DNA of 64,000 nt from Lachnospiraceae bacterium OF09-6 (lineage in GTDB: Bacteria; Bacillota; Clostridia; Lachnospirales; Lachnospiraceae). The notes under the pieces were generated by a model that ran no database searches, had not been told where the DNA came from, and saw nothing but the letters and a program-made list of their open reading frames with translations. Shown one piece after another: positions 12,343 to 63,567 of this stretch. The DNA lies in NCBI GenBank assembly GCA_003435055.1, contig QUMM01000003.1:144321-208320 (forward strand). Reading direction: 5' to 3'. The position numbers were made by a program, and so were the translations under genes. How positions within the stretch are numbered: the stretch's first letter is position 1; every line of letters starts with the position of its first letter.

Positions 12343-12409
12343 CCCTGATTATCTCTTTGTAACTGCTTAGTTCCTTTCCCTCATGATCTGAACAGTTACC
12401 ATTTTTTCA

Positions 12410-43326: not shown

Positions 43327-46300
43327 TTATTTCATAACTTTTACTTTGACTTTTACTGTCTTCTTTCCAGCTTTTACCGTAATCACTGCTTTTCCAGCTT
43401 TCTTTGCGGTAATGACGCCCTTTCTGGATATTGTGGCAATCTTCTTATTAGAAGTCTTGTAGGTCACCTTATCCTTGGATGTAATCGGGGAAATCAGTGC
43501 CATCAGTGTTCTCTTACCTTTCACCTTTAAGGTTACGTTTCTTTCAGAAACAGTAATCTTTGATGTCGCTACTTTCTTTTTCTGAACTGTAATTGTTACG
43601 GTTCTGGATGTTCCAGATGCAAAATTCAGAGTAATCTTTACCTTTCCGGCCTTCACACCTTTCACATTTCCCTTGTTATCCACTGTCGCAATCTTCTTGT
43701 TCGCGCTGGTTGCAGATGCAATGGAATCGCCTTGTGCCATGTTTGTTACAATCTTGCTTAAGGCTACCTTCTGTTTGATCTGCAAAGGAAGTTTTGAGGT
43801 AGTCAGTTTCACATTACTGATGAGTTTCGCCACTTCTGCATTTTCTGCATAGCCGCATACACTACAGGTTCGCGTCTTCACACCTGCTGCCAGCGCAGTC
43901 GGATGAACCGTTTCTACATAACCGCCCATCGCATGTGCTACTTTTTCAAGTACTTGATTGGCAACGGTTGTCTCTATGTTTCCTGCCTGATCTGCAAATA
44001 CCTTGCCGCAGGTACCACAAGTCCAGTAGCCTCTGGTTCCTTCCGACACACAGGTAGCCGCCCTTGCATGGGTCTGGTTCAGCCGATGTCCTGCTGCCGG
44101 AATATTCATTGCTTCTGGTGTGGTTGGCTGTGCAGCCGCCACATCTGCAAATATCTGATGGCAGGTAGTACAGGTCCAGTAAGCATGATTACCGGCAGTA
44201 GTACAGGAAGCTGCTTTTGCCTGGGTAGCAGTAAGTGTATGTCCGATTGCCGGAATCACCAGTTTTTCCAGTGTTGTCTCCGTCTGTGCTGATTCATCTG
44301 CAAAAACTTTACCGCAAGCCTCGCATGTCCAGTATACCTGATTTCCATTTTCCAGACAGGTCGCTTTTCTTGCTTCCGTCTTTGCCAGCCTGTGTTCTGC
44401 AATATCCAGCACCTTCACAACCTGTGTTTCTTCACAGTTCTTACAGATCTTAAATACCATTCCTTTTTCCATACAGGTGGCTGTTTTTGTCTGCTCTCCG
44501 CCCCAGTCATGGGATGGCTCACCCGTTGTCATTTTTTTGGTAATTCCGCAGACACTACACTTCTGCTGCTCCACCTGGAAGCAGTTTACACTTTCTGGCT
44601 CGACACTGCCATCCTTCACAAATGTATGTTCATTCGTCTTTGGAATCGTTCTGGTCTCCTTTTCTGTGCATCCTGCATGCTTACAGCTTCTTGCTTTTTC
44701 GCCGTCCTCTTTACAGGTTGCCTGCTTGGTAACTGTCCATTCACTGTATTCATGTCCCAGTGCCTCGACAGATCTGGCTGTACCAGTCACTTTACAGATT
44801 TCACATACCTGTTGTTCCTTTCCAGCTTTTTTACAGGTTGCTGTCTCGCCTGGCACTGCTACCCATTTATATTTGTGACCAGTCGCCGGAATGGTCTCCT
44901 GACGTGTCTCTGTGCATCCATTGTGGCTGCAACTATAAGTCTGACTTCCATTCGCTGTACAAGTTGCCGGTGTCGTTTCACCTTTTACTGTATAGTCATG
45001 TCCCAATGACTCCAGCGTTCTTACCTGTACTTCCTTACCACAAACCTTACAATTTGCAGTCACTTTTCCAGGTTCTGTACAGGTTGCCGATATCGTATTT
45101 TCCTTTGCTCCCTGTATATCATGCTTTCCATCTATACATTCCCCCTGTACGATACGAAGACCTGTAAAGTTTCTGGTAGTAAAGGTGATAGCGCCATCCA
45201 CATTCCGCTTAAATGCTACTTCTTCTGTTGCTCTCGTCGTTGCAGATACTCTGACCAGCTTATAGTCTGTCTGTGTGAACAGATCTGCCAGCTTCAAGGT
45301 AAATACCACCGGTGATTCTACAGACGTATACTCTTTTAACTCTCCATTTGGCTGCAATACCTTTAATGCAATAGAAAGATCCTGATATTTCTTCACAATT
45401 CCTGCAATCTCCTCACTTTCTATTTCACCGGCATTAATGGATATCTCATTTTTTGCTGACTTTGTATCTTCCTCAACACGATCCGCCAGAGAATTCATAT
45501 CTGCTGTCTGATCCATCATCAACATCGGTTGCATCTTTTCTTCTGTCTGTGTTTCCGTAACTGACACAAGAGCAAGTGTGCCTCCGACCACTGTTGCATC
45601 GTCGCACATATTTCCTGTTATCTGAGGTGCATCTACTGTAATCGGCATATTGCGTTCCACTCCCGCAATCTGTTCAGATGTCACCAATTCCTCATCCACG
45701 TGTCCCATTACTCCCAGAACATCTTCGAAGTCCGTTCCATCTGGTCCATAATCAGGTCCATACTCACCATAACCGCCGATAAAGTCAAGGTATCCTGCCT
45801 GGCGTTTACTTGGTATAACTCGAATAATATCTATTCCACCGCACCGATAACAGGTTCTGAATTCTTCACCGTTTTCATCCAACGTGGAGTCTATTGTAAT
45901 GGTATCTTTACTCCAGTCATGCTCCAGCGCTGACTGCACCTTAAACTGCTTTCTTCCACAGGATTTGCATTCATAGGTCAGCAGACCATCTTCTTCGCAG
46001 GTTGCAGCCTGTGTAACCGTCAAATCCATCCTGTGACCTGTTTTTTCTGTCTCCGTCGTTTCAACAGTTCCACATTTTTCACAGCGTCGTTCCTGAATTC
46101 CATTTTCTGTACAGGATGCTTCTCGAATCACCGTTGCTTCCCCATAGCTATGTCCGGTTGCCGGAATACTTTCCACGCTGTTTTCTTTTATTGCACCACA
46201 TGCAGAACAATGCGTACTCTTCTGACCGTCTATGGTACAGGTTGCTTCCTGATCGATGGTCTTTGTTGCTTTCCAGACATGATCTGTTCGGGCAATTGTC

Positions 46301-49300
46301 TGCGTAGATCCTGGTTTAACAGCTGAGCAATTCTGACAGCGAATATCCTGCATTCCTTCTGCTTCACAGGTAGCTTCTTTTTCTACGGTTGGTTCCGAAT
46401 TCCAGGTATGTGATACAGTTGGCAATACACTGATCCTTTTTGCCTGGCAGCCTGCATTCTGGCAACGATAACGAATCAATCCCTGATCCACACAGGTCGG
46501 TTCCACTATGTAGTCCCAGTATCCTTCATCCAGTCCAAATATATGACCGATTGCCGGAATGGAAGTAAAACTATCTGCTTTCACCTGATGACAAATTGTA
46601 CAAATCAGCTGGCTATGTCCGGCAGTTGTACAGGTTGGTGCTGTTTTCTGCTCCACATAATCATGTGCTGTCATTGGAATCACTTCTGTCAGTGCTTTTG
46701 CTTTGCAGCGTGTACAGATCTTGGAGCGACTTCCTTCCCTTGTACAGCTTGCCGGTTCATCGACTGTCCACTCTACATTTGTCAGATCATGACCACGAGC
46801 CGGCATCACTTTTGTTTCTGTATAACGGTTTCCATCCTTACAAATCGTACAATTCTGATAGGTACAAGTCCTCTGCTGTAATCCGTCAGTGGTACAGTCA
46901 GCTTCTGTCACAGTTTTCCATTCACCCATCTGATGTGCTGTCATCGGGATAGCTGTACGGCTGTTTTTCTTTTCTTCCCCACACACTTTACAGATGAGTG
47001 CCTGAACACCTTCTTCTGTCGCAGTCGCCGCTTTTATCATTCGGCTCTCCCAGCTATGATCTGTCAGATCCAGTTCTTTTGTTTCTTTTTCACTGCATCC
47101 AGTATTGCTGCAAGTTCTCTCTGCTATACCTTTTTTCTTGCAGGTGGAAGGTGTGATCGTATTCCATTCGCCAAATGTATGACCCGAAGCTGCTATTAGT
47201 GTGTAATCTTTTACAGCATCACATCTTATACATTTCTGCTGGATATAACCATTCTCTGTACAGGTTGCCTCTTTGCGATCTGGCTTATACTCATGTCCCA
47301 GCATTGGTTTCTGCCCGGATATTGTTCCCTTACACCGGTTACAGATCTGTATATACCTTCCGTTCGTGGTACAATCTGCTTCCTGCGTATAAATCTTTTC
47401 ACGCAAGTCATGTCCCAGTGCCTTGATAACTTCATAATCTTCTACCGCTCCGCACCTCTTACATTTCTGCCGGGTATATCCGTCTTCCGTACAGGTTGCC
47501 TCTCTTGAGTCCTCTTCATACTGATGCCCTGTCATATTTACAATTGACAGGAATACATATCCGCATCTTTTACATGTCTGTGTCATCTCACCAGAGGTGG
47601 TACAGGTGGCTTGTTTCACCGTTACCCATTCACCATAGTCATGCTCCAATGCAGGAATGCTCTTATAACTGCCTGTCCTTATCTCATTACAATTGCTGCA
47701 TCTTTCCTGCCCATAACCAGAATCTTCACAGGTTGCCTCTTTTCGCTCCGTCACATAATTATGACCAAGTGATGGAACCTCTGCCGTCTCCGACATATCA
47801 CAGCCTTCATTTTGGCAACTTCTCCGCATAGAACCAGGCTGCTCACAAGTGGCAGCTTTTACTTCTTTCCAGTCTCCAAATTTGTGGCCTGTTGCAGGAA
47901 TCATCCGCTGTTTTAACGTTGTTTCCTTCTGTGCATCTGCATCTGCAAATACCAGCTTACATCTCTCACAGGTCCAGTATTCCTGATTTCCTGTTTCTGT
48001 ACAGGTCGCTGCTTTTGCTTCTGTCCTGTTCAGTTTATGGCCTGCCGGAAGTACTTCTGATCTGGTTTCCGTACAGCCTTCCATCGTACAGTGATACTGT
48101 TTTTCACCAGTTGTGGTACAGGTTGGTTCTGTTACTACTTCACCATCATCCCATGTATGAGTATGTGCCTGTATGGTTTCATCCAGATCTACAATATCAT
48201 TGATTCGGATCACTTCGGTATTATTCTGTTCATCCGTTTCTTCTGCATCGCAGGTGATCGTTACCAGGATACTGACATCAGACAGATTTTTATCAACCAG
48301 GAAGCTTACATCTCTTTCATCGCCTCCCGCCAGATCTGGCAGGGCTCCTTCATAGAGAAGTTCTTTACTCTCCAGGTTTTCTGCTTTCAGACCCATACCG
48401 CCACTGGATACAATTCCTCTGTTTTCCAGCCCGATCAGCAATTTTGCACCTTCTGCTGTGGTTCCCATGTAAGAGCCATAGGTGATCGCCACATCTCGCA
48501 TCTGGCCGCCAATATCAGTCGCATTATCTTCCATGTTCACATCTTCTAAGGCGCTGTCAGCTGGTAATACTACCAGATAGTAAGTATTTCCATTGTATGC
48601 TTCCGGCACTTTCCAGATAATGGTTCCATTCAGACCATTTTTCACTGTGGCCTCTGCTATCGGAGCACTGCCATCTTCCTTCTCTGATATCACAGCTTTC
48701 ACTCCGGTTACTGCTCCCGTTCCCACATTGGCTGCTTTAAAGTCTGTGCGCATTTCTGCGCCTGCATAAAGCACTCCATCTGTACTGCTTTCCATCAGTT
48801 TCAGATCCGTTCCTAAAGGAATGGATTTGGATTTCAATTCATACCGCACACCATTTTCGGTAATCGCCTGCTGATATACCAGCAATATCATACCATTTTC
48901 CACTACAATCTGAGGTGCCGCACACAGTCCAGCCTGCTCTACTGCTTCAAATGGTTCTGTCCATCTTACGCCATCCTGAGATACTGCCATATAAATAGAT
49001 CCATCGTATTTGCTTTCTGACCAAGCCAGCATGATTCCTTTTTCTCCATATGCTGTCGCTGTAAAAGATTCTACATCTTCCAGTGAATCGCTGCATACGA
49101 TCTGCTGAATCTTCCCGTTTGCTGCGCAAAGTATCTTTCTGTCGCTGATATAATACAGCTTTCCTTTAATATATTTCGGATCATATACAGTATCAGAAGA
49201 ACTGATCGTCTCTGCCTTTTTCCATCTGTTTCCATCATAAGCGCTGTAAAAAATCTCTTTTCCGCCTTGATGATTCCGGATATTGGCAGTGAGCAGATAG

Positions 49301-52300
49301 CTTCCATCGGCTTCTTCCAGTGCAAGCTCGGAGATCAGATAACCAGGTACCTGAATTTCGCCCTGACCAGATACCACTTCGCCCTTTCTGTATACAAAGT
49401 GTAAGGTATCCGGCTTCTCTACTGTTGCAGTTTCTGCACCTGCTGCATTTTCTACCCATACGCTCAGACCACTCTCTCCATTGCCTGCCCAAACTGGTTT
49501 GCTGACAAGTTTTCCATTTGACGCAATTTCCTGAGTTGTCCAGGCATCCGTTGCCGGATCATAATATGCCTGGCAGACAGTCATCTTATCATAGAGTGCA
49601 TCTGCAATCTGTTCCTCTGTATAAGTTCCACTCATATCTCCGAGGCGCTCCTTCAGCTTTGTCCAGATCAGGCTTGCACCGTTCTCTGTCTTCGTCAGCT
49701 TCGGAGACATTTCTATGGTTCCATCTGTTGAAATCCTCTTTGGTGTTGTCCAGGAGCCATCCACTTTTCTGGTGTAATAGATACCAACCGGATTATCTTT
49801 ATCCTCGGTATAATTTACAAATACCATTAAAGTTGTTCCATCTGCCAGAGGCACCACCTGTGGCTGAACATCATAGTAGACACCCTGCGCAAGTATTCCT
49901 GGTTTTCCTTCTGTTTCCTCCGTCTTTCCAATCCATTGGCTGTCAGCCGGAGCAGAATCCAGAACATATCCTCCTGCATTTTCCTGTGCCGCTTCTGCCA
50001 CAGCCAGAATCGCTGCCTCATCTGACAGCACACTATATTCCTGGTCAGATAATTCATGCGACGTTGTTCCGGAATCTGCAAACAGTTCATAGTTCTCATT
50101 TAACCATGCTCCTCCGTTCTGGAAACACAGTAAATGGCTTTCCCAACCAACTTCTACTGTTGACAACATCTTCATATATGGCATAAAGCCCATTTTCAGG
50201 CCAACCTTGAAATATGCGCCAAGAGAAGCGAGTTCCTTCATTCCTACCATTCCACCTGCGGAACCTTTTACCTTACCTTCTATGGTTCCACTCTTTAATG
50301 CGAAAGAATCTGACAGTTCTTCCAGGAACTGATCTCCTACTTCTGTTTTGCATAACTGCAGGTCCAGTTCTCCGTTTCCTTCAAAGCCAACTTCCGCATA
50401 GGCAAGTTTCCACTCACCTTTTGCCAGAGGAACACTCACATTTCCTTCCAGTATAATATCAACCGCCACATCCCATACATTTTTTATCGTATTATAGGTA
50501 AAGGTCAGCTGAATTTTAATATCACCGGAAAGTGATGTTCGTTCCGGTTTTCCGTCCTTATCATTGCTAATCGCATAAAATCCAGACTGTTTCTTCGCCT
50601 TTCCCTGTTTCAGTGCATAAGCAATGGTTACTTTTCCTGAAGTATCGTAGCTTGCGGTGACCGGAAATTCTTTCTCATTTTCCACTTCAAAGTCATACTG
50701 ATGAAGCAGCTTCAGTAAAGTATCCTCTTTCTCATCATCAGAAGAATCTTTCGTTCCGCTTCCAATGTTGACCTTGGTATCTTTTCCCTTCTTGCTAAAC
50801 AGTACTTTTACTACATCACTTCCCTTTAAGGACCATTCTTTTCCATCTGTAGCCTGATTCAGGTCATAAGTAAAGCTATTCAGGAAATTCGGGCGTTCAA
50901 TTACCAGAAAATGAGCATCTTGGTATGGCACCTGGTAAATCTGGCCATCAGCGGTTTTCACTTTCATTCCAAAGTACAGTTTTTCTCCGGCATCCATATC
51001 ATTCATATCCAGAAGGAATGTATTACTGGTAAACTCACCTTCTTTTACCACTTTATCTTTGTTGGAAATGCGATATGTATAATTCTGAAATTCTTCTCCA
51101 TCTACAATCTCCTTATCCAAGGTGAATGTAACCTTTCCAGATGCAGTACCCTTTGGAATAATGGTGATATTTCCAAGCGAATTGGAGCTAAGACTGCAGG
51201 ACAGATTCTTAATAAAAGAATGTCCCAGTCCATCATCCTTATACAGATAATAGGTTTTCTCTGTCTGTTCGCCTACTGTTACAATATCTTCCAACGGATA
51301 ATACCCTTCAGCAGTAATACGGATGGTATTTTTTCCTGTCGGAACTGCTTTACCAAAGATATCCACCTTTCCTTCTTTGCCCGTAACTGCACTGGTATTT
51401 CCAACTGTTACCGTTGCACCAGATATATTCGCATATCCTCCGTCTTCTTTTTCAACCTGCACACACACGGTCAAATTGCCGGTTGTCGCTGTCTTGCCTC
51501 TGACCACGACCGATACAATCTTCCTTGCTCTGCTGCTGTAAAAGCCGATATCATACGCTTTGTAGTTTGTCTTTGTATTTCCATCTGCTGCGCCATCTGA
51601 TATTCCAGGCAGCCAGTCCGTAATCTCGTATCCTTTCACGATACATGTACCATTTTCATCTGTAGTGACTTTCTTTACATGGCTGTTGCCAGGTTTGTCA
51701 TCTCGCATGAGATAGCCATCCCGAATGGTCACTTCCATAGAAGTCGGAACATCTTTTCCATACTCATCCTGACGATAAGTCTTAATCATCAGATCCGGTA
51801 TTTCTGCTTTGAACACTCCGTTTTTCTGCAGATCCAATAATTTTACTTCTTCGCCCACTTCCCCTGTTTCACTGTCATATTCATAGACTTCTATCTTATC
51901 TGGGGATATGGTTAACGGTTCTACCGTCTTCATCGTAAAGTTTACGTCAACTCCGGAAAGCTGTTCTGTAATCTGATTTACCAGATAGAATGTAGTATCT
52001 TCCGCCCCGATCAGTTCTTCCCAGTCGTCCCGGTCAATGATGTAATCGTACCAGAGTTCTTCTCCCGTCTCCAGTACTTCACGGCTGGTATTCACAGTAC
52101 TTGGTCCTGATGCCTTCCAGGATTTTACCAGCTGTACTTTATCCAGCTTCAGATTCGGACAATATACCGGATTCTCATCTTCATTTCGAATACCTACTCG
52201 AATGGCACCATCGGTGTAATTCAAAATAGCACTTTCTGTGATAATGTCCACCCAGATGTTTTCTCCGCCTCGTACCTTAAACGGCTCTTTTACTTTAAAG

Positions 52301-54681
52301 GACGCATGGATACTTGCTCCAAAATCTCTCAGTGTACCGGAGAAATCTGCACCTACTTCATACTCACCTGCTTCATCACCACGCAGAATCCAGTGTGCAG
52401 ATGCACTCTTTCCACCCTGAATTGTTCCCATGGAAACTTCAGGACTGGCAGTTGTATAATTGGAATCCATTAACGTCAGTCCGGAAGGTACCTTTAAGGT
52501 TGCCTTACAGTTATCTACATAGAATGCAGAATCTGCCTGATTCAAAACCGTGAGTTCCACATCAAAGAAGTCCTTCAGCCAGCTTCCTTCTCCAGGGATT
52601 TCCAGCACGGCAATCATCGGCTCTTTGATCGTCATCTGACTGCCATCACCACCAGAACCGCCACTGCCTCCGCCGGAATAATTCCAGTAACCATCGAAAT
52701 CCGGAATAGGAATCGGCACCGGTTTGATAATCCGGTCATCTACTTTATATTCTTCATCTTCCCAATGCCACTGGCCACCACTATAGGTACCTTCCACCGG
52801 GATTTCTTCTCCTTTGTAATACAGCGTCGTTTTAAACTTGAAGACATTCTGATTGGCTTCCTCGTCCAGCTTGATTCCAGCTGCCTTGATTTCCTCCAGC
52901 GTCATACGTCTCACCGTCAGATCACCAACAATCATATCTTTTTTCACCAGAGTAAGAGCAACCTCTGTTGTCTGCTTTTCCGTAATCTGCACTTCCTTTT
53001 TAACCGGAAGATAGCCGTCCTTATATGCTCCAATTGGATACATGCCTTTCGTTGCCGTAAGTTCTGCATAGCCATCACTGTTGGTATTGATCATTCTCAT
53101 CTGTTCTGAGCCAAGATCAAAGTAGACTCCGGCGTCCGGTACTGCCGCTCCATTTTCATCATGTACTCTGACACGCACGAATCCTGTACTGTCTTTGTCG
53201 TAAATCGTTACATTCATCTGTACAGTTGCCGTATTTTCAGCTGCATCTGCAACCGTAAGTGTTACCTCAAAGGTTCCGGCCGTCTCATAAGTGTGAACCG
53301 CTTCCATCGTGTCTGCCGTAGATCCATCACCAAAATCCCACTTGTAGGAAACGATTCCTGTATCGTCATAAGATGACGCTGCGGAAAATGTCATTTCTAC
53401 GCCAAGTTCGCCTCTGGAATTAGCTGATATATAGGCATATGGATCTGTCGTATCCACCACCTGAATCAATGGTGCTGTAATCATCACTTCGTTACTGTCC
53501 GCAGAGTTGCCATATTTGTCTATAGATCTGACAAAGTAAATATAACCTGTCAGAGACTGTACCGTCGTATCTTCAAATGTATACTGTTCCTTATCTTCCG
53601 CCGACTTCTGTAATACACAGATGCTGTTATCCTTTGTCTCACCGGCAGATCTTCGATACAGATAGAACCCGGCCAGATCCTCTTCCTGTCCGCTTGTCCA
53701 AGTCAGTTCGATAGCGCTCTGGTCTTCTTTTACTGTTGCTGTCAGATCAGATGTTTCTGGTGCCACATCATCGATGGTATAGGTTCTGGTTACTTCTTCA
53801 CTGATATTTCCAGACACATCCACGCATACAGCCTTCAGATAAAACTGTTTCTCTGCTCCCAGGTTGATCTTGTCCCAGTCAACATTGATCGGATATACTC
53901 CATTTTGTGCATTTACGCTGATATCAGAAATCGTCTGCCAGTTTGCCCCGTCGGTACTGTAAGATGCCCGCAGGACTTCTACCTCATTATTGTCTTCCAC
54001 TAATGCCCTGATCTGGCTCCTGATCCCAATCCTGCCACTTGCCGGTGCAATACTGTGAATCACCGGTTTCTCAGTATCTGCCGGAATGGTGACTTCTAAA
54101 GATTCACTGTCTTCACTGATATTGCCTGCCAGGTCAGTCACACGAATGCGATATGCATATCTCTGACTGAATTCTACATTTCGATCCACATAACTTAACG
54201 CAGTGTAATCCGAAACAAGGATTTCTTCTTTTCCGGTATCCAGACTGGTTCGTACCACCTGATATCCGGCAAGATCTTCTTCCTCGCCACGTTTCCAGGA
54301 TAGCATTACTTTTTTGCCTTTTGGTTCTGCCGCTTTCAGTCCCTGCGGTGCTGCCGGAGCAGTGCGGTCTATCACATATTCCACAAAAGGTGCTGTCTGC
54401 GTACTGTTTCCCTCATTGCCATACAAGTCTGTCGGAATGGCACGTACAAAAACAGATCCTTCTTCTAACGTATCCGTGTCCAGTGTATAGGATACTACGA
54501 TTGTGGTTCCACTCTTCTGCACTTCCAGACTGGCAAGCTCTGTCCATGCTGACTTATCCCTGGAAGTTTGAATCAACAGCGCATCGACTCCTGTATCATC
54601 TGATACCGTAAACTGCATCGAAATTGTGCCTTTACATCTCATTGCTTCCGGCGAAATATCAGAGATCACCGGTGCTGTCAT
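43327..54681 (-). CDS. Giant exported protein, segment 5: FN3/PKD, propeller, Cys/His repeats, Big_2 end
   Basis: A 3784-codon frame. Residues 1-410 are alternating Ig-like and FN3 domains (DLAGYQVVRTS, DLAGFYLYRRS). 410-495 is PKD (YKWDFGDGSTAD, VHTYETAGTFEVTLTV), and 500-580 CNA-B-like. About 1620-1990 is a propeller-like region with SQDGVRWTEP-type turns, then two CARDB-like domains. About 2170-2950 and 3190-3610 hold 29 repeats of H-x(9-17)-(T/S)-C-x(8)-C-x2-4-C; copies 10, 19 and 29 lack the first Cys. The end has two Big_2-like domains (SANKKIATVDNKGNVKGVKAG; TSNKKIATISRKGVITAKKAG). The apparent start is only the point after the frameshift. Confidence 0.9.
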   Translation of the reverse strand: MTAPVISDISPEAMRCKGTISMQFTVSDDTGVDALLIQTSRDKSAWTELASLEVQKSGTTIVVSYTLDTDTLEEGSVFVRAIPTDLYGNEGNSTQTAPFVEYVIDRTAPAAPQGLKAAEPKGKKVMLSWKRGEEEDLAGYQVVRTSLDTGKEEILVSDYTALSYVDRNVEFSQRYAYRIRVTDLAGNISEDSESLEVTIPADTEKPVIHSIAPASGRIGIRSQIRALVEDNNEVEVLRASYSTDGANWQTISDISVNAQNGVYPINVDWDKINLGAEKQFYLKAVCVDVSGNISEEVTRTYTIDDVAPETSDLTATVKEDQSAIELTWTSGQEEDLAGFYLYRRSAGETKDNSICVLQKSAEDKEQYTFEDTTVQSLTGYIYFVRSIDKYGNSADSNEVMITAPLIQVVDTTDPYAYISANSRGELGVEMTFSAASSYDDTGIVSYKWDFGDGSTADTMEAVHTYETAGTFEVTLTVADAAENTATVQMNVTIYDKDSTGFVRVRVHDENGAAVPDAGVYFDLGSEQMRMINTNSDGYAELTATKGMYPIGAYKDGYLPVKKEVQITEKQTTEVALTLVKKDMIVGDLTVRRMTLEEIKAAGIKLDEEANQNVFKFKTTLYYKGEEIPVEGTYSGGQWHWEDEEYKVDDRIIKPVPIPIPDFDGYWNYSGGGSGGSGGDGSQMTIKEPMIAVLEIPGEGSWLKDFFDVELTVLNQADSAFYVDNCKATLKVPSGLTLMDSNYTTASPEVSMGTIQGGKSASAHWILRGDEAGEYEVGADFSGTLRDFGASIHASFKVKEPFKVRGGENIWVDIITESAILNYTDGAIRVGIRNEDENPVYCPNLKLDKVQLVKSWKASGPSTVNTSREVLETGEELWYDYIIDRDDWEELIGAEDTTFYLVNQITEQLSGVDVNFTMKTVEPLTISPDKIEVYEYDSETGEVGEEVKLLDLQKNGVFKAEIPDLMIKTYRQDEYGKDVPTSMEVTIRDGYLMRDDKPGNSHVKKVTTDENGTCIVKGYEITDWLPGISDGAADGNTKTNYKAYDIGFYSSRARKIVSVVVRGKTATTGNLTVCVQVEKEDGGYANISGATVTVGNTSAVTGKEGKVDIFGKAVPTGKNTIRITAEGYYPLEDIVTVGEQTEKTYYLYKDDGLGHSFIKNLSCSLSSNSLGNITIIPKGTASGKVTFTLDKEIVDGEEFQNYTYRISNKDKVVKEGEFTSNTFLLDMNDMDAGEKLYFGMKVKTADGQIYQVPYQDAHFLVIERPNFLNSFTYDLNQATDGKEWSLKGSDVVKVLFSKKGKDTKVNIGSGTKDSSDDEKEDTLLKLLHQYDFEVENEKEFPVTASYDTSGKVTIAYALKQGKAKKQSGFYAISNDKDGKPERTSLSGDIKIQLTFTYNTIKNVWDVAVDIILEGNVSVPLAKGEWKLAYAEVGFEGNGELDLQLCKTEVGDQFLEELSDSFALKSGTIEGKVKGSAGGMVGMKELASLGAYFKVGLKMGFMPYMKMLSTVEVGWESHLLCFQNGGAWLNENYELFADSGTTSHELSDQEYSVLSDEAAILAVAEAAQENAGGYVLDSAPADSQWIGKTEETEGKPGILAQGVYYDVQPQVVPLADGTTLMVFVNYTEDKDNPVGIYYTRKVDGSWTTPKRISTDGTIEMSPKLTKTENGASLIWTKLKERLGDMSGTYTEEQIADALYDKMTVCQAYYDPATDAWTTQEIASNGKLVSKPVWAGNGESGLSVWVENAAGAETATVEKPDTLHFVYRKGEVVSGQGEIQVPGYLISELALEEADGSYLLTANIRNHQGGKEIFYSAYDGNRWKKAETISSSDTVYDPKYIKGKLYYISDRKILCAANGKIQQIVCSDSLEDVESFTATAYGEKGIMLAWSESKYDGSIYMAVSQDGVRWTEPFEAVEQAGLCAAPQIVVENGMILLVYQQAITENGVRYELKSKSIPLGTDLKLMESSTDGVLYAGAEMRTDFKAANVGTGAVTGVKAVISEKEDGSAPIAEATVKNGLNGTIIWKVPEAYNGNTYYLVVLPADSALEDVNMEDNATDIGGQMRDVAITYGSYMGTTAEGAKLLIGLENRGIVSSGGMGLKAENLESKELLYEGALPDLAGGDERDVSFLVDKNLSDVSILVTITCDAEETDEQNNTEVIRINDIVDLDETIQAHTHTWDDGEVVTEPTCTTTGEKQYHCTMEGCTETRSEVLPAGHKLNRTEAKAATCTETGNQEYWTCERCKLVFADADAQKETTLKQRMIPATGHKFGDWKEVKAATCEQPGSMRRSCQNEGCDMSETAEVPSLGHNYVTERKEATCEDSGYGQERCSNCNEIRTGSYKSIPALEHDYGEWVTVKQATCTTSGEMTQTCKRCGYVFLSIVNMTGHQYEEDSREATCTEDGYTRQKCKRCGAVEDYEVIKALGHDLREKIYTQEADCTTNGRYIQICNRCKGTISGQKPMLGHEYKPDRKEATCTENGYIQQKCIRCDAVKDYTLIAASGHTFGEWNTITPSTCKKKGIAERTCSNTGCSEKETKELDLTDHSWESRMIKAATATEEGVQALICKVCGEEKKNSRTAIPMTAHQMGEWKTVTEADCTTDGLQQRTCTYQNCTICKDGNRYTETKVMPARGHDLTNVEWTVDEPASCTREGSRSKICTRCKAKALTEVIPMTAHDYVEQKTAPTCTTAGHSQLICTICHQVKADSFTSIPAIGHIFGLDEGYWDYIVEPTCVDQGLIRYRCQNAGCQAKRISVLPTVSHTWNSEPTVEKEATCEAEGMQDIRCQNCSAVKPGSTQTIARTDHVWKATKTIDQEATCTIDGQKSTHCSACGAIKENSVESIPATGHSYGEATVIREASCTENGIQERRCEKCGTVETTETEKTGHRMDLTVTQAATCEEDGLLTYECKSCGRKQFKVQSALEHDWSKDTITIDSTLDENGEEFRTCYRCGGIDIIRVIPSKRQAGYLDFIGGYGEYGPDYGPDGTDFEDVLGVMGHVDEELVTSEQIAGVERNMPITVDAPQITGNMCDDATVVGGTLALVSVTETQTEEKMQPMLMMDQTADMNSLADRVEEDTKSAKNEISINAGEIESEEIAGIVKKYQDLSIALKVLQPNGELKEYTSVESPVVFTLKLADLFTQTDYKLVRVSATTRATEEVAFKRNVDGAITFTTRNFTGLRIVQGECIDGKHDIQGAKENTISATCTEPGKVTANCKVCGKEVQVRTLESLGHDYTVKGETTPATCTANGSQTYSCSHNGCTETRQETIPATGHKYKWVAVPGETATCKKAGKEQQVCEICKVTGTARSVEALGHEYSEWTVTKQATCKEDGEKARSCKHAGCTEKETRTIPKTNEHTFVKDGSVEPESVNCFQVEQQKCSVCGITKKMTTGEPSHDWGGEQTKTATCMEKGMVFKICKNCEETQVVKVLDIAEHRLAKTEARKATCLENGNQVYWTCEACGKVFADESAQTETTLEKLVIPAIGHTLTATQAKAASCTTAGNHAYWTCTTCHQIFADVAAAQPTTPEAMNIPAAGHRLNQTHARAATCVSEGTRGYWTCGTCGKVFADQAGNIETTVANQVLEKVAHAMGGYVETVHPTALAAGVKTRTCSVCGYAENAEVAKLISNVKLTTSKLPLQIKQKVALSKIVTNMAQGDSIASATSANKKIATVDNKGNVKGVKAGKVKITLNFASGTSRTVTITVQKKKVATSKITVSERNVTLKVKGKRTLMALISPITSKDKVTYKTSNKKIATISRKGVITAKKAGKAVITVKAGKKTVKVKVKVMK

Positions 54682-54749
54682 ATCCTTTGTTGTAGATGCC
54701 TCGATCGGATCCGACTCGGTTCCCCGGTTTCCATATACATCGTAAGCTA

Positions 54750-56324
54750 CTACGCGATATGTAACTTTTGTTTCCGGAGAAAGGCCGGAAATATTAACTC
54801 CAAGAGTACTGTCTGCTCTCTGTATTGCGGTCCAGCTCCATCTTCCTGCTGCTGTTCTATCTGGAAATAGCCAAAATCCTCATCTGGCACATCAGCCCAT
54901 GATAAGGTAATGTTCGTAGAAGTAGCAGAATATGCCAGTCCGGTCACTTTTTCCGGTCCCTGGTTATCAATGGTATACTCATATACAGCTGTGCTGTAAG
55001 CACTATTTCCATAGATATCTTCCGCCAGGAATCGTACCTTAATCACTGCTTCCTTCCAGATGGTTGTATCCAGTGAAAATGTTCCTGCATTTCCTGCAAT
55101 CACCTGATCCAGAGTTTCCCAGTTTAATTCCTCTTCACTGACTGCCCATTCCATTTTAATGGATTTCACTGCCGTATCATCACTGGCAGCTACTGCAAAT
55201 TCTTTCACACCATTTAATACACTGTGATTTTCCGGCGAAACACGCTCAATCTCCGGTACCGCACTATCTGGTATATAACTGATATCATCTTGTTCAATTA
55301 CAAAACTATGCTTTTCTTCATTTCCAGAGTTGCTCCAGAGTCCATCTGCATGTTCCAGCAGATAGATTCCTTCTCCATTCGGCACCTCAGCAAATCCGGA
55401 ATAAGAAAATTCCTCTCTGGTTATCCATTTCCACTGACTGCCGTCTCGGAATCCGCCAATCCAGCAATCCGTAACAGCGGCTTCCTCCATAAGCTGTCTG
55501 ATATAGGTACTTTCTGCCGCAGTCGTAACGGTTGCCAGATGTCCACCGGATTCCTGCGCTTTTGCAACGGCCTCTGTCCAGGTAATCGCTTCCGAAACTA
55601 TTGTGTAAGTATGGCCTTTCTTTGGAAGGATCTTTGTGCTGTTTTCCTGTACTGCTTCACAATTTTTGCAGACAATCGCTGTCGTTCCTTCTTTATCTTC
55701 CGTTGGCTCTTCCAGTACTTTTTCTTCCCACTGATGTCCTATAGCAGGAAGAATCTGATCCTCTGCCGTTGTTTCCGTATTGCCAGCTTCATCTGAAAAA
55801 ATCTTGCCACACCGATTACAGATCCAATAAGCGTTATGACCATCCTCCATACAGGTAGGTGTTACCTCTTCTATCTTCGTCATATCATGACCGAGAGCTG
55901 CTGTCACCTGATTCTTGGCAGTCGTCTCTGTGCTTCCGGTTACATCTGTATAACTCTTGCCACACCGATTACAGGTCCAATACGGATCCAGGCCTGGCTC
56001 CGTACAGGTTGCCCCATACCCTTCCGTCTCCGTCATATCATGTCCAAGTACCGGAAGTTCTTCTGTCTCTGTATACCTTGTCCCATCTTTACAATATACA
56101 CAGTATTCATTGATGCAGCTCCTGCTTTTTTCTCCTGCTTCTGTACAGGTTGCTTCTGCCGTAACACTCCATTCACCCATCTTGTGGCCGGTCATTGGAA
56201 TCGGCTTACGACTTCCTTCTTTTTCCTCCTTACATCTGGAACAAATCTCTGCCTGCATACCATCTTCGGTATCTGTAGCTGCCTGCAGCACTACAGTTTC
56301 CCAGTCATGCCCCCAATGGTTCAC
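54750..56324 (-). CDS. Giant exported protein, segment 4: Cys/His repeats and C-type-lectin-like domain
   Basis: A 524-codon frame. It begins in a Cys/His repeat (GHDWETVVLQAATDTEDG) and has four more. A C-type-lectin-like domain follows (SEAITWTEAVAKAQESGGHL, CWIGGFRDGSQWKWI, then W-S-N-S-G-N-E), which could bind glycan or protein. Ig-like and FN3 domains come next. The last 27 codons are out of phase: after QEDGA the neighbouring frame gives SWTAIQRADSTLGVNISG and runs into segment 5. One missing base near 54837 explains it. Confidence 0.85.
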   Translation of the reverse strand: MNHWGHDWETVVLQAATDTEDGMQAEICSRCKEEKEGSRKPIPMTGHKMGEWSVTAEATCTEAGEKSRSCINEYCVYCKDGTRYTETEELPVLGHDMTETEGYGATCTEPGLDPYWTCNRCGKSYTDVTGSTETTAKNQVTAALGHDMTKIEEVTPTCMEDGHNAYWICNRCGKIFSDEAGNTETTAEDQILPAIGHQWEEKVLEEPTEDKEGTTAIVCKNCEAVQENSTKILPKKGHTYTIVSEAITWTEAVAKAQESGGHLATVTTAAESTYIRQLMEEAAVTDCWIGGFRDGSQWKWITREEFSYSGFAEVPNGEGIYLLEHADGLWSNSGNEEKHSFVIEQDDISYIPDSAVPEIERVSPENHSVLNGVKEFAVAASDDTAVKSIKMEWAVSEEELNWETLDQVIAGNAGTFSLDTTIWKEAVIKVRFLAEDIYGNSAYSTAVYEYTIDNQGPEKVTGLAYSATSTNITLSWADVPDEDFGYFQIEQQQEDGAGPQYREQTVLLELIFPAFLRKQKLHIA

Positions 56325-56826
56325 GTATGATCATATCCATGGTTGTCGGTATAAAAGTAGTCTCCATCAAATCAAATGCACCCTTACATAACGGGCAATA
56401 CCAGTAAGACCAATTCCCAGCCTCTGTACAGGTTGGTTCTTTTTCTTCTATCCGTTCCATCTCTCTGAAATCATGCCCAAGAGACGGAAGTACACATGCT
56501 TCTACGGTTGTTTCTACTGTCCCATCTGCATCTGCAAATACCTTTCCACAAACTTCGCAGATCCAATAGCCTTTTGTTCCATCTTCGATACAGGTTGCTT
56601 CCTTTGCCTTTGTTTCTGTCAGTTTATGTCCCAGTGCCGGAATCTCCTCATAACTTCCTTCCAGCAATTCTCCACATACACTGCACTTTTTCTGAGTATA
56701 TCCTTTTTCCTCACAGGTAGCTTCTTTTCTGTCCACTACATAATTATGAACATGTTCGCCTGGCTCTTCCGCTTTTTGTACCGTTACCGTATGATCCTCT
56801 TTCTCCTCATAGTTATGAAATGTCAC
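56305..56826 (-). CDS. Giant exported protein, segment 3: first Cys/His repeats
   Basis: A 173-codon frame containing three Cys/His repeats, e.g. HNYVVDRKEATCEEKGYTQ then KCSVCG. It reads to IIREPLG and then leaves phase in a run of five C at 56310-56314; with four, IIREPLGHDWETVVL continues straight into segment 4. Its apparent start, MTFHNYEEKED, is the continuation of segment 2 (TLEADKTYNVTFHNY). Confidence 0.82.
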   Translation of the reverse strand: MTFHNYEEKEDHTVTVQKAEEPGEHVHNYVVDRKEATCEEKGYTQKKCSVCGELLEGSYEEIPALGHKLTETKAKEATCIEDGTKGYWICEVCGKVFADADGTVETTVEACVLPSLGHDFREMERIEEKEPTCTEAGNWSYWYCPLCKGAFDLMETTFIPTTMDMIIREPLGA

Positions 56827-59060
56827 ATTATAAGTTTTATCTGCTTCCAGCGTATAATATCCATGCTGCGGAAAAAGAGCCTCTGTGTTTCACTGTCATA
56901 GACTTCAGCAAACATATTTTGCTCTGTTCCGGTTATACAAAACTGATAGCTGCCTTTTTCTGACGGTGTGAAAGAATACATTCCAAAGTTTTCTCCAGCC
57001 TTGATAACCACAGCTTTTTCCAGTTCCAGTATGCCGGTATAATCCCAGGCTTTTACCGGAAGATCCACAAAAGCACGATACTGGTTGCATTCCACTTCTA
57101 CACGAAATGTATCCGTGTTTATCCATGAACCTTCTCGCTGTAAAGACATTCCACTGTAACGTTCCTTTTCCTCATCCATCAGAAGCTCTGTACTTCCGTC
57201 TGAATAAGTTACTTCTGTTTTTAACCAACGGTAATCCAACAATCCTATCCCGGCATAAGCTGCCAGATCTTCTGGTACCTCTACAATTTTCAGACCTGCC
57301 ACATTCTTCTTTATTTTCGAAATGGAAAGCGTATAGGGAATCACAGGATCTCCTCTGTTTTCTGCCACATTAAAATAATAGGTTCTTCCTCTCTGCAGCT
57401 TTACCGTTGTCCTGTTTACATAGGTAGCATTTTCATCAAAGCTGTTCCCATTCGAAAAAGACGCATTTTCTATAAAGCTTCCAAAGTACACACCGAATCC
57501 CTGTGCTGTTGTCTGAAACACATAATTTCCTGTTTCTTCCGGAACAAACTTAAAGTAGGCAGGTGCAGATGCCTGCACTTCTTTCTCTGCAGTCACTTCT
57601 GTTGCACAGTCTTCCACAGCTCTGATTGGAAACCGGCCTTCTGTCACACCTTTTTCCTCTGTGCGCACAGACACATTCAGATCACATTCCCCGTTCGTTT
57701 CCAATTCTACTTTTTCTACTTTAATATCATAAAATCTATTTCCATAATCATCTGATTTATCCGTTACTGTTCCATTTGAATCACAAAAAAGAGGCACCAT
57801 CCCTGTTGTATCATCTGTATAAGTAACATATAGATACAATTGTCCAATGTACTGCCACATGGAATCTCCATGCACGTAATCAAGTTCCGAACAAATCTCT
57901 ACATTCTGAATGGTCTTTTTTACAGGTTCTTCGATCTCTGTGCCTGCTTTTACAATACAGAACTGATAATCTGTGGCATGTTCCGCCATCACCACATATC
58001 TTGTTCCGGCTTCTGCGTCTATGATATTTCCCAAATTGCTAAGCTGATTATCCAGATTCTCATAGAATGTAATATTCGCATAGTCTGTCCCCTGATATTT
58101 TACGGTATATGTTCCAGCTTCTTTCGGAATAAAAGTATAAAAATATCTTCCGCTTCTGCCAGTCACCTCCACATTCTGATCTGTGGTAATCTCCGTCATC
58201 GCAGCAACATCTGGTTTTACCACTTTTACTGTCGCAGAGGTAATGCTATCTTCTTTCATCACTTTTTTCAGAATCTGTGAGGAAAGACTGTTTTCATTCC
58301 AACTATCCATACCAGCACGAGATACTTCCGGAATAACTGTATAGGTTCCTGTCGGACAGATTTGATTCATATACCAGGCATTCCCCTGTGTATCCCTGAT
58401 TTTATATTGGAATCGGTTTCCATAACCGTCTTCTTCCATGTACTGTATCCATCTTCTGCTTCCGTCGGTATACGTTACATCAATTGCCAGATTCTGCCTG
58501 TTCCATGTATCCGGTCCCGAAAGCAGGTCGTCTCCATCATATATCACAGACATACTGGTCGGTAATACAGCCTTCTTTACGGACACCATCAGACTGGTCA
58601 CATCCGAATCCAGATCTGCTACTGCATAATACGTTCCGGCTGGCAGTGCCGCATATTCCGTATACGTATTTCCGTTTGCGGTTATTTCTACTTCATTTTC
58701 CTTTGTATCATATACTTTCAGATTTTCAAAAGAAACGTTTGCACTCAGCTGATAGATCCATTCATCCGCAACGGTAAACTGATAACGCATAGTATGCGTT
58801 TTATCTATATCTATCTTCTGTTCCCGGTTCTCTGTTACCACCTGCTTCGCATACTCTGCCAGCGAAACAACCTGGAACCTGCCTACTTCCACAGTCTTTT
58901 CTTCTCCATAGCGAATCTGATAAGTATAGGCACCGCTCTTTTCTAACCTATCCACCGGATCGCCTGTTTCATTTATGACTTCGCCTGTTATTTCACTTTC
59001 GTACTTTTCTCCTTTATAAAAAACGTCATGACTATCGTCTTCACAGGTGATTTTTAGCAA
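56823..59060 (-). CDS. Giant exported protein, segment 2: PPC-like beta-sandwich repeats
   Basis: A 745-codon frame of repeating beta-sandwich units. Each has a 'YSDG/YTDG' strand with Y-G-N-R/W and a PPC-like half (YFKFVPEETGNYVFQTTAQG; YYFNVAENRGDP). Such domains commonly bind polysaccharide or act as spacers; the role is not known here. The end runs out of phase after AEVYDSETQRLFF; one extra C at 56870 gives PQHGYYTLEADKTYNVTFHN and joins segment 3. The TTG at its head is not a real start. Confidence 0.82.
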   Translation of the reverse strand: MLKITCEDDSHDVFYKGEKYESEITGEVINETGDPVDRLEKSGAYTYQIRYGEEKTVEVGRFQVVSLAEYAKQVVTENREQKIDIDKTHTMRYQFTVADEWIYQLSANVSFENLKVYDTKENEVEITANGNTYTEYAALPAGTYYAVADLDSDVTSLMVSVKKAVLPTSMSVIYDGDDLLSGPDTWNRQNLAIDVTYTDGSRRWIQYMEEDGYGNRFQYKIRDTQGNAWYMNQICPTGTYTVIPEVSRAGMDSWNENSLSSQILKKVMKEDSITSATVKVVKPDVAAMTEITTDQNVEVTGRSGRYFYTFIPKEAGTYTVKYQGTDYANITFYENLDNQLSNLGNIIDAEAGTRYVVMAEHATDYQFCIVKAGTEIEEPVKKTIQNVEICSELDYVHGDSMWQYIGQLYLYVTYTDDTTGMVPLFCDSNGTVTDKSDDYGNRFYDIKVEKVELETNGECDLNVSVRTEEKGVTEGRFPIRAVEDCATEVTAEKEVQASAPAYFKFVPEETGNYVFQTTAQGFGVYFGSFIENASFSNGNSFDENATYVNRTTVKLQRGRTYYFNVAENRGDPVIPYTLSISKIKKNVAGLKIVEVPEDLAAYAGIGLLDYRWLKTEVTYSDGSTELLMDEEKERYSGMSLQREGSWINTDTFRVEVECNQYRAFVDLPVKAWDYTGILELEKAVVIKAGENFGMYSFTPSEKGSYQFCITGTEQNMFAEVYDSETQRLFFRSMDIIRWKQIKLIM

Positions 59061-61372
59061 ATATCCGGATCCGGAATATCGCTTCCTGTCCGGTAAACTG
59101 TTTTCAGATTATGCTCCACTACTTCCAGCGATTTTACATTTTTATATTCGGTAAGATAAACCTGATAATCTCCTGTTTCTCCTGTACTGCGTAATCTTGT
59201 TTTCAGGTAATAGGTCTTTCTAGCCTGCAATGTCATCTGTATAGAGAAATTGCCTTCTTCTGTATCATTCTTGCTGTCTGCTAATTTTGTGCCGATTTCA
59301 TCATACAGCTCCCCATACGTATCACAGTATCCATAAGACTGTAGCTGCACGGTTTGATCTTTTTCTGGTGTGTAACTAAACCATTGCGCTATTTTGTCTT
59401 CATCAAGAGAAACCGCATACTTCTTATCTGGTCGCATTCTCGTTACACTTACTGCACCGCCGTGAAATGGTGTAGGCTCCTCTTCGTTTATCTGTATAAC
59501 GTAAGTATCCTCTATCTGTGAATCCGCCTGACACTGAATATGAACCGTATATTTTCCCTGTGACAGTTTTTCCCACATATCATATCGCTGGCCGTCTTTT
59601 CCTTCCACATACGCATAGATTCCATTTCCATTGCCATCGATATTGTCCCATCTACCAATTTCCGTAAATTCTTCTGATTCACCATTACTGTAACGAAATT
59701 CTATCTTTTGTAACCGTATATGGTTCTGAGATACTCCGGCATAAAACTCTGTTTTACCCGGCGTTACCTTGATCGCTTTTATACTTCTGATCTTTTTTAT
59801 TTCTGTTTTCCACACGAAATCTGTTCCATCTGATGGATAAGGACCACGAAATCCAATATAATAGGTATTTCCTCCTGTAGCCGAAAATGTACCATTCGTT
59901 GTGTACATAAGTTCTTTGTCACTTGTGTAGATGTTCAGATTATTATATTTATCAATCTTATAAGTGCCTGTCTCATCCGGAGTAAACCGATACCAGTTAT
60001 GGAAATGTTCTGAATCCATACTGGTAATCTCATTTTCTCCAAGGCTCAGTGTCGGTAATTCTACCTTTGCAGCTTCTCTCAAATGGTAGATATCATCACT
60101 GACTCCGATTTCTTCCCCATCTACCTGAAAAGATACTGCATAATCCCCATCTTCTAAGTTTACATCCTGACTGTAAGTTTCAGAATCATTTTTTCTTTTT
60201 AAGCTTGCCGAAATTGCATTTCCCGTTTCATCTATATAGGTATTATCATCTGGCCATTTTATCGTTTTGCTCTCTCTGTCCGGATAATGGATCGTAATCT
60301 GTGTACCGGCTATGATATGAAAATCCATTCCGTTCAGATATACTTCTTTCTCCGGTATGATATCTGTCACCGACGCGATTTCTCCATGCACCTGTGCCAG
60401 TTCTGTGGTCCAGTCATTACCCCAAAATCCGGTTGTTTCATTCTTTGCCGATCCCTGAAATCCAAGATAATAGGTTACTCCCGTAGTCGTCTGAAAACTT
60501 CCATGAGAATACCCTGCTTCTTCTATCCCGGACTCTGTCTTTTGGAATACAGAAAAGCTGGTGCTTGTTCTGAAATAGTACTTTCCTGTCTCTGGAGCAA
60601 CAAACTGATACCATTGCTTTTCAAGCTCTCCGCTGTGAATCGTCACAGGTCCTACTTTCAGTACCGGTATCTCTGCATCCTCCAAATTTACCACATGATA
60701 AGCTACCTCCGTCTGGAACTCTTTTCCATTTATCTTACAGATCATATACCAGGTGCCTGCTGACATAGGCGTCATCTCTGTATCCTGCTTGGTCTCACCT
60801 GTCTCTTCATTTTTTAAATAAAACGGAATCGTATTGCCATATCGGTCTGTGAACTTATCATTTCCAACCTCACAATTTTCTGTAACACCATCAGAATATG
60901 TTACAGACAGTTTGGTATTAAAGGCGATTCCACAACCGTCCAATTCACTGATAAACTGTTCTTTTTCCGAAGTTCCGGTAATCCTGGTAATCGTTACCGT
61001 TTCTGCTGATTCACTGGAAGATTCCTCTCCTCCGGCCGACGTATCCGATCCGGCTGCATCTACTGAGCTATTCTCCGATTCTTCATCCGTTTCTCCTCCA
61101 ACGATCTGTTCCCCTTCACTTTCAGAATCATCCATCTGTACCAGCGTTTCTGTATCTTCCGGTTCCTCCTCTGGTTCTGACATTGCTGTTTCTGCCAGCG
61201 ATGTCTGCTCCTTCACATCTGCCTTTGTTTCTTCTGCTGCGTGATCATGTGTTTCTTCACTCAGTACGCCTGTCACATCTGCCGCTGACACCAGCACACT
61301 ACTGTCAATGCTGGTAAATGCCATAGAAAATGACAAAAGCAGAGCTACTCTCTGCCGCAAACTTTTTCTCAT
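59054..61372 (-). CDS. Giant exported protein, segment 1: signal peptide, acidic linker, PPC-like domains
   Basis: The true N-terminus, 772 codons. I start at 61372 (MRKSLRQRVALLLSFSMAF), where GGGAGGAG lies 7 bases upstream, rather than at 61438. A signal peptide ends near VLVSAAD. About 110 residues rich in E, S and D follow, then four or so PPC-like beta-sandwiches (WYQFVAPETGKYYFRTSTS; WYRFTPDETGTYKIDKYNN; WFSYTPEKDQTVQLQSYG). The frame leaves phase at SDIPDPD near 59061; the next frame continues with LLKITCEDD, so the gene does not end here. Confidence 0.85.
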   Translation of the reverse strand: MRKSLRQRVALLLSFSMAFTSIDSSVLVSAADVTGVLSEETHDHAAEETKADVKEQTSLAETAMSEPEEEPEDTETLVQMDDSESEGEQIVGGETDEESENSSVDAAGSDTSAGGEESSSESAETVTITRITGTSEKEQFISELDGCGIAFNTKLSVTYSDGVTENCEVGNDKFTDRYGNTIPFYLKNEETGETKQDTEMTPMSAGTWYMICKINGKEFQTEVAYHVVNLEDAEIPVLKVGPVTIHSGELEKQWYQFVAPETGKYYFRTSTSFSVFQKTESGIEEAGYSHGSFQTTTGVTYYLGFQGSAKNETTGFWGNDWTTELAQVHGEIASVTDIIPEKEVYLNGMDFHIIAGTQITIHYPDRESKTIKWPDDNTYIDETGNAISASLKRKNDSETYSQDVNLEDGDYAVSFQVDGEEIGVSDDIYHLREAAKVELPTLSLGENEITSMDSEHFHNWYRFTPDETGTYKIDKYNNLNIYTSDKELMYTTNGTFSATGGNTYYIGFRGPYPSDGTDFVWKTEIKKIRSIKAIKVTPGKTEFYAGVSQNHIRLQKIEFRYSNGESEEFTEIGRWDNIDGNGNGIYAYVEGKDGQRYDMWEKLSQGKYTVHIQCQADSQIEDTYVIQINEEEPTPFHGGAVSVTRMRPDKKYAVSLDEDKIAQWFSYTPEKDQTVQLQSYGYCDTYGELYDEIGTKLADSKNDTEEGNFSIQMTLQARKTYYLKTRLRSTGETGDYQVYLTEYKNVKSLEVVEHNLKTVYRTGSDIPDPDIC

Positions 61373-61552
61373 GCTATTTCTCCTCCCTCGTTTCTGTATT
61401 ATTATATTTTTAGACGATAAGACATACTTTCTTTCCATTTTGTCATTTTTTATCCGTCACAATATACAATTATATAACAAAATGTTAACTTGAATTGTTC
61501 ACCATGTCAATCTGCACAAGAAAACTTTTTTTGTATTTTATATATACAAGAA

Positions 61553-61581: not shown

Positions 61582-61794
61582 TTATACTTTGATTCGATCT
61601 GCAATATCTTTGCTTACTGCAAACTGTCTTCCCGCCGCCGATACGATCATATTCCCACAAAAATTCTGGATTACTTTTATCGTACTTCCTTCTTCAATAT
61701 GACCTTCTCTCAGGAAGTTCAATATCTCCGGCGCTCCAAACATCCATTTTATGGTACAGGCATTGCCTGAAGCCTGTGCTGATAAGTTCTGCAT
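61582..61794 (-). CDS. feoA: FeoA-like small SH3-fold protein
   Basis: A 70-residue protein of the FeoA type: LREGHIEEGSTIKVIQNFCG in the middle and VSAAGRQFAVSKDIADRIKV at the end, the SH3-like barrel of ferrous-iron uptake proteins. FeoA helps FeoB, but no feoB is near, so it may be one of the stand-alone copies common in Clostridia. AGGAGG is 7 bases upstream. It lies alone between the giant gene and a surface-protein remnant. Confidence 0.75.
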   Translation of the reverse strand: MQNLSAQASGNACTIKWMFGAPEILNFLREGHIEEGSTIKVIQNFCGNMIVSAAGRQFAVSKDIADRIKV

Positions 61795-63441: not shown

Positions 63442-63567
63442 TCTCTCATCTCCATTCTTACCTATAATACACTCTGGATTTTTATTGCAAATTCGCAATC
63501 TTACAATTTGTTTGTCCTGTTTTTCAGTTTCACTATGCACAATTCCGAGATAGCACTTGACGGCCAT

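Follow-up and report, generated by a model that had tools for sequence, protein, structure and literature searches.

Cys/His repeats of a giant exported protein from a Lachnospiraceae bacterium may share metal sites across repeat junctions

We analysed a 64,000-nucleotide stretch of DNA from Lachnospiraceae bacterium OF09-6 (assembly GCA_003435055.1, contig QUMM01000003.1, positions 144,321 to 208,320 of the forward strand; hereafter the window), whose minus strand at 43327-61438 holds a giant gene covered by five open reading frames (ORFs). The gene encodes a giant exported protein with 37 Cys/His repeats, and the way in which conserved residues are lost and replaced in this repeat family suggests that each metal site lies at a junction and draws its ligands from two neighboring repeats. 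We consider it rather probable that these junction-shared sites staple the repeats into spacer rods for binding domains.

Repeat units and arrays

An earlier note, made from the letters of the window, had described 37 copies of a repeat with one His and three Cys and had given the spacing of the first two Cys as C-x(8)-C. The pattern given there had no match in the five pieces of the protein, which were compared and analysed separately, with their frames left as they stand in the record; the actual spacing is C-x(9-10)-C. With the pattern C-x(8-10)-C-x(2-5)-C we found 31 units with all three Cys, 29 of which had the upstream His, compared to means of 0.002-0.81 matches per piece in 500 shuffles. 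A profile built from the 31 units detected 36 units (3, 5 and 28 across the pieces), and a degenerate unit recognized by eye at approximately 44512-44613 made the 37th, in agreement with the number given in the note. The composition of one His and three Cys held only in part: 31 of the 37 units have the three Cys regularly placed and six have no regularly placed first Cys. The unit and its count are shown here by sequence, and the repeats fall into three arrays:

55599..56748, minus strand: array 1, 8 Cys/His repeats; starts with an HxH doublet, last unit without the first Cys, crosses a frame break
45811..48159, minus strand: array 2, 19 Cys/His repeats; starts with an HxH doublet, last unit without the first Cys and the following His
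43834..45123, minus strand: array 3, 10 Cys/His repeats; starts with C-x4-H, last unit without the first Cys and the following His

Array sizes in relatives, by a simpler pattern, were 7-8, 19-20 and 9, and the median repeat spacing across relatives was 40 residues. In the five window pieces, the repeats are not covered by any Pfam or NCBIfam model that exceeds its cut-off; the Pfam family RUBY_RBDX matched them weakly (E 0.004, below cut-off), and searches against PHROGs gave weak matches only (best E 1.8e-4). In one relative (P0081), short stretches exceeded the cut-offs of a plant BAP model and of a few zinc-finger models; we took these as cross-matches.

Covariation of ligands across repeat junctions

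We designated the leading His of a unit H0, its Cys residues C1, C2 and C3, and the leading His of the following unit H1. From 6,431 profile matches in 134 proteins and the window pieces, 6,244 units remained once P0001-P0005 (near copies of the window protein, described below), duplicates, units lacking C2 and those located at the ends of proteins had been removed; 5,374 adjacent unit pairs formed the junction set. The ends of arrays were examined in strict last units, which have no Cys in residues 9-100 after C2 (n = 32, from 29 proteins; 26 non-redundant). H0 and C3 were each present in 32/32 of these units, yet C1 and H1 were each present in 1/32, both in the same unit, compared to 5,325/5,875 (C1) and 5,795/5,875 (H1) in internal units. 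Because the last units retained other conserved positions (Gly in 32/32, Thr/Ser in 30/31), the loss of C1 and H1 does not appear to be general decay. Looser definitions of first and last units, under which C1 was present in 153/240 last units, admitted false array ends, and the strict definitions were used in their place.

Additional ligands were found on the other side of the junction. When C1 of the preceding unit was missing, the next unit had a CxxH..C knuckle, which provides an extra potential ligand, in 248/460 cases; when C1 was present, this knuckle was found in 0/4,914. The pattern spans 78 proteins and holds in 136/136 non-redundant pairs. Its association with C1 loss was positive at lag +1 only: the own unit (lag 0) had the knuckle in 0/619 cases, lag +2 showed no association, and lags -2, -1 and +3 were negative. 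This rule was found by scanning positions and was not chosen beforehand. Any of four substitutes (CxxH..C, Cx4CxxC, HxH and Cx(2-4)H) occurred at 336/460 C1-less junctions versus 64/4,914 others. A different candidate, a His three residues before C2, which an alignment with the IgA protease discussed below had led us to guess as a replacement of C1, showed the opposite trend (1/460 versus 96/4,914) and was rejected. At the other end of arrays, where no C1 comes before the unit, a Cys or His was present within five residues before H0 in 21/59 first units, compared to 322/5,353.

The window itself follows the same pattern. Its arrays start with HxH, HxH and Cx4H, and its last units lack C1 in 3/3 and H1 in 2/3 cases. 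In the table of window junctions, which leaves out the junction across the frame break and the degenerate unit, two internal units without C1 precede the only two Cx4CxxC knuckles of the table. We also examined 64 held-out loci (L093-L156), in which 129 ORFs were screened. Sixty of these loci contributed 61 ORFs, which yielded 327 distinct junctions together with 7 strict last units; an earlier held-out set of 41 units had contained no last units. All seven held-out last units were without C1 and kept H0 and C3, and 1/7 had a His in the H1 range. An HxH was present at 2/4 C1-less junctions, and a substitute at 0/323 others. One ORF (L094) shares sequence with the set from which the rule was derived and stayed in; none of the seven ORFs with last units does, and the held-out proteins are still relatives.

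Because array ends, cross-junction substitution and array starts agree, and because of the meander topology described below, we suggest a shared site composed of C1 of unit i, the linking His (H1 of unit i, which is H0 of unit i+1), and C2 and C3 of unit i+1. We regard the repeat, its relationship to IgA protease domains and the covariation across junctions as firm. Apart from IgA protease papers, the titles and abstracts listed from the open-licence literature included none on this repeat. The junction rule was described neither in these listings nor in the passages of two IgA protease papers, and the sequence evidence for a junction-spanning site appears to be new here.

Relationship to IgA protease domains and predicted fold

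A search of the Protein Data Bank (PDB) with one of the repeat profiles (A2) produced a single clear match, an IgA protease (9qa6_A, E 2.8e-21, three stretches); the lower rows shown were mostly C2H2 zinc fingers that have the CxxC-G knuckle in common. PDB 9QA6 is the structure entry of PMC12237041, passages of which describe the domains ZBD1 and ZBD2 of the Thomasclavelia ramosa IgA protease as three-stranded subdomains with zinc sites predicted at the subdomain interfaces (ligand sets 2His2Cys or 3Cys1His). According to the same passages, zinc was assigned tentatively, by the geometry of a prediction, and the refined cryo-electron microscopy model stops at residue 876, the repeat region being modelled and unsolved. 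The protease has 24 cysteines, disulfides were neither observed nor predicted, and a reductant was needed for monodispersity (PMC12237041). In its passages, a second paper on the protease (PMC12402451) leaves the repeat untreated. The statement of the earlier note that it knew no named function for the repeat needs to be revised: the module already has a name in the IgA protease, although these passages likewise give no known function for it.

The repeats of the window match ZBD1 and ZBD2 by sequence, and both are extracellular and consist of tandem three-stranded units; the metal sites predicted at the unit interfaces of the protease may also be common to both. However, the protease has 2-3 units per domain beside the protease, whereas the window protein has 37 units in three arrays and, unlike the IgA protease, no protease among its Pfam matches. 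The rule of ligand swapping across junctions comes from the present analysis and is unmentioned for the protease in the passages of PMC12237041.

An AlphaFold2 model of three window units (11 in-register rows; predicted local distance difference test score (pLDDT) 94, predicted template modelling score (pTM) 0.60) had nine strands, three per unit. In an up-and-down meander, His and CxxC would lie at one end of the unit and C1 at the opposite end. A Foldseek search of the model against PDB found nothing at E <= 0.001, which is no proof of a new fold, and fold searches with the repeat model gave weak matches only. Among the nearest known systems we also counted the zinc ribbon of the TFIIS/RNA polymerase A12 type. 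The staphylococcal SasG/Aap G5-E rods are not known to have Cys/His sites holding their junctions, and no match to the Pfam family G5 was detected in the window pieces. Calcium-stabilised giant adhesins built of RTX or Ig repeats carry binding domains on a stalk of repeats stiffened by metal, as proposed here, but acidic residues hold their calcium, in contrast to the Cys/His ligands proposed for the window protein.

Evidence against the shared site and alternative explanations

Several observations weigh against the shared, metal-stapled site and the rod built on it. At 124/460 C1-less junctions none of the four substitutes was present (19 of these 124 align a Cys there with other spacing), and 38/59 first units were without a Cys/His substitute. 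HxH also occurred at 58/4,914 junctions with C1, and HxH after C1-less units stems from only 11 proteins. As the proteins are relatives of one another, chosen because they resemble the window array, the counts are not independent events. Among the held-out junctions, CxxH..C was found in 0/4, too few junctions for this pattern, and 2/4 showed no substitute. The zinc sites published for the IgA protease are, in the passages of PMC12237041, predictions themselves. Finally, no LPxTG-like sortase motif was detected at the C-termini of the window protein and P0001-P0005, all of which end in a Big_2 domain. Among 117 repeat proteins, a loose sortase motif was present within the last 60 residues in 4. 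Because no anchor motif was found, the grounds for proposing a surface stalk are its signal sequence and the types of domain present; a role as stalk or adhesin is plausible.

We also observed a Glu two residues before H0 in 18 of the 38 first units that have no Cys/His substitute (in relatives, with P0001-P0005 left out). This Glu is perhaps an alternative, weaker ligand.

The earlier note had placed one His and three Cys in each repeat as a set for a zinc site or for disulfides. If each repeat folded round its own complete site (C1, CxxC and one His), the repeats would be independent beads. This appears very improbable, as last repeats lose C1 and the following His, yet keep the leading His and CxxC; as the CxxH..C substitute arises in the next repeat and never in the own one; and as a three-stranded meander would set C1 and CxxC at opposite ends of the unit. 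The ligands appear instead to come from two neighboring repeats. Disulfides, which would give a covalently stiffened extracellular rod without metal, would fit an exported protein whose units mostly conserve two or more cysteines, but the number of Cys per repeat is odd, and in the IgA protease, which carries the same repeat, disulfides were neither observed nor predicted according to the passages cited above. Moreover, Cys and His stand in for one another at the site, which is impossible for a disulfide; a metal-type site is therefore favored, and we consider the disulfide rod extremely doubtful.

Of the two possibilities left by the note, the zinc-type set thus fared better. Three Cys and one His are a usual structural zinc set, which speaks against iron or another soft metal with a redox or metal-storage role. 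The CxxC-G knuckles do resemble rubredoxin, as in the weak RUBY_RBDX match, but the sites of the IgA protease were tentatively assigned to zinc by the geometry of the prediction (passages of PMC12237041). We consider iron or another soft metal quite improbable, and the metal of the proposed shared site is likely structural zinc.

A single gene with frame breaks in the record

The giant gene is interrupted in the record by four frame breaks, all at approximately 54.7-59.1 kb, and is covered by the following ORFs:

59054-61438, minus strand: ORF 1 of the giant gene
56823-59060, minus strand: ORF 2 of the giant gene
56305-56826, minus strand: ORF 3 of the giant gene
54750-56324, minus strand: ORF 4 of the giant gene
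43327-54681, minus strand: ORF 5 of the giant gene

The earlier note had joined the five frames into one gene, and this is backed by five public relatives without interruption (P0001-P0005, 5,985-6,345 residues), which are 89-99% identical to the window over the non-repeat region searched. The length of 6,015 residues that it claimed is that of P0004, whose best matches to ORFs 1-5 are residues 1-771, 772-1501, 1517-1688, 1688-2180 and 2232-6015. The ORFs are colinear piece by piece with P0001 and P0004, with no more than 51 residues uncovered between best matches; for P0001 the colinearity holds up to the array region, and the heads of P0002, P0003 and P0005 differ from that of the window. 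Because the ORFs align in order along uninterrupted relatives, the five frames correspond to one giant exported protein in the species, by the evidence of these alignments, and intact copies exist.

We also considered that the five frames are real, as a decaying pseudogene or as pieces translated separately. The four breaks fall inside approximately 4.4 kb of the gene, with none in the remaining 13.7 kb, and gene remnants seem to sit just upstream (62055-62459, by eye), both of which would fit decay. However, the close relatives are uninterrupted. In addition, a purine nucleoside phosphorylase gene is also split in the window (40139-40531 and 40531-40845, two ORFs with Pfam half-domains) and is a single open frame in a related locus (L005). 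Because of this second split gene, sequence errors are probably the simpler reading of the breaks, and real frames appear unlikely.

Mosaic alleles, head and other domains

Alignment of P0001-P0005 revealed two sharply bounded divergent blocks. Block A (approximately residues 440-1580 of P0004) covers the head and has a long length difference; block B (approximately residues 4425-5760) extends from array 2 into array 3, and array 2 of the window sits inside it. The two forms inside a block are approximately 25-65% identical where aligned, whereas between the blocks P0001-P0004 are 85-100% and P0005 is 79-96% identical. P0004 is of the type A1/Ba, P0001 of A1/Bb, P0002 of A2/Ba, and P0003 and P0005 of A2/Bb; the window is A1/Ba by the identity of its pieces. 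Because all four combinations occur, the blocks have recombined independently, as judged from five proteins at the protein level.

Features of the protein outside the arrays were as follows:

61277..61372, minus strand: signal peptide region, Sec-type, start at 61372, read by eye
56877..60997, minus strand: head with repeated Ig-like and PPC-like beta-sandwich modules; mostly variable block A, crosses frame breaks
55299..55586, minus strand: C-type lectin-like domain (Lectin_C, Pfam PF00059, E 4.8e-6, 27.7 bits versus a cut-off of 22.6)
53209..53445, minus strand: PKD domain (Pfam PF18911, E 1.6e-17)
52948..53178, minus strand: carboxypeptidase regulatory-like domain (Pfam PF13620, E 3.8e-10)
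43339..43563, minus strand: C-terminal Big_2 domain, the better of two stretches with a match (Pfam PF02368, E 9.6e-11)

Export, which the earlier note had proposed, is consistent with the Sec-type signal sequence, and a signal-type N-terminus is common to four of the five relatives (P0001, P0003, P0004 and P0005), P0002 starting further in. Six aligned head modules were 19-30% identical to the first module. The AlphaFold2 model of one of them (pLDDT 79) had a PPC domain as its best Foldseek match (5sv5, E 9.4e-4); weak matches to toxin domains were considered generic beta sandwiches and were not read as function.

Genomic surroundings

The giant gene adjoins rplJ (L10). In two related loci (L005 and L009), other ORFs occupy the place next to rplJ; a third (L010) is masked. 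Relatives of the neighboring transporter (the best 80 of 329) were mostly from Lachnospiraceae or unplaced Clostridia, none above 85% identity. A small FeoA-domain protein is encoded directly upstream of the giant gene (61582-61794), followed by remnants recognized by eye (62055-62800), which include a fragment like the C-terminal part of another surface protein, with no Pfam match, and a transposase-like fragment. A type IV pilin-like protein (Pfam N_methyl) is encoded further upstream (63001-63567). Elsewhere in the window (6712-13809), a GH112 galacto-N-biose/lacto-N-biose phosphorylase lies beside sugar ABC transporter genes (the latter by eye), an arrangement fitting host glycan use. The best 120 of 7,980 matches to the GH112 protein include a protein of 92% identity and another, under the name Blautia wexlerae, of 90%; we read the host as a Blautia-like Lachnospiraceae.

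Occurrence of the repeat

The repeat block matched at least 7,532 proteins (2,081-6,622 residues) out of 7,997 scored candidates, and 120 of the matches were listed. One of them (P0020, 6,379 residues) has a single array of approximately 120 repeats (residues 1293-6110). A one-unit profile detected the repeat in 108/341 genomes of a class sample. A three-unit profile, which differs from it in sensitivity, detected the repeat in 14/299 genomes of a phylum sample and in 9/58 and 181/297 genomes of two orders, the latter order having been picked for holding a strong match. The repeat is thus common in Clostridia. Despite this abundance in proteins and genomes, neither Pfam nor NCBIfam has a family model for it.

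The non-repeat stretch had no relative in a first scan of genome contigs and no match in 18 of the genomes with transporter relatives; in a wider sample, 34/397 genomes of the family matched it, in most cases along a short portion. Phage DNA likewise gave no near match to the non-repeat part. Two unannotated phage records from human faeces, MT835476.1 (97657-98007) and MT836450.1 (3999-4274), encode stretches approximately 35% identical to three window repeats.

Proposed mechanism and implications

In the proposed mechanism, the repeats would be three-stranded beta units of approximately 40 residues, with the leading His and CxxC at one end and C1 and the leading His of the following unit at the other. 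Neighboring units would share one metal site, and the metal, most likely zinc, would staple them into a rigid rod. Three such rods would then serve as spacers between the recombining Ig/PPC head, the C-type lectin-like domain, the middle part with PKD and carboxypeptidase regulatory-like domains, and the C-terminal Big_2 region, and the most likely role would be to present binding domains at a distance from the cell surface. For the IgA protease, passages of PMC12237041 give a predicted length of approximately 110 Å for three subdomains; extrapolation at this rise would put the arrays of 8, 19 and 10 units at lengths of approximately 29, 70 and 37 nm. The rigidity and length of the rods and an adhesin role, like zinc itself, are what these features lead us to infer.

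The junction rule predicts one metal per junction, and on loss of one C1 the following repeat should have an empty site. More tentatively, and with less than even probability, such proteins may represent a widespread, unnamed extracellular architecture of anaerobic Clostridia, with rods of up to approximately 120 units in which each metal ion staples two repeats where oxidative disulfides are scarce, and with array and head cassettes exchanged between strains. In that case the stiffness of the rods, and hence the reach of the displayed domains, would depend on luminal zinc, and the proteins would be sensitive to zinc withholding by the host. If zinc does hold the rods, its availability in the gut would be a mechanical input for the surface proteins of many commensals.

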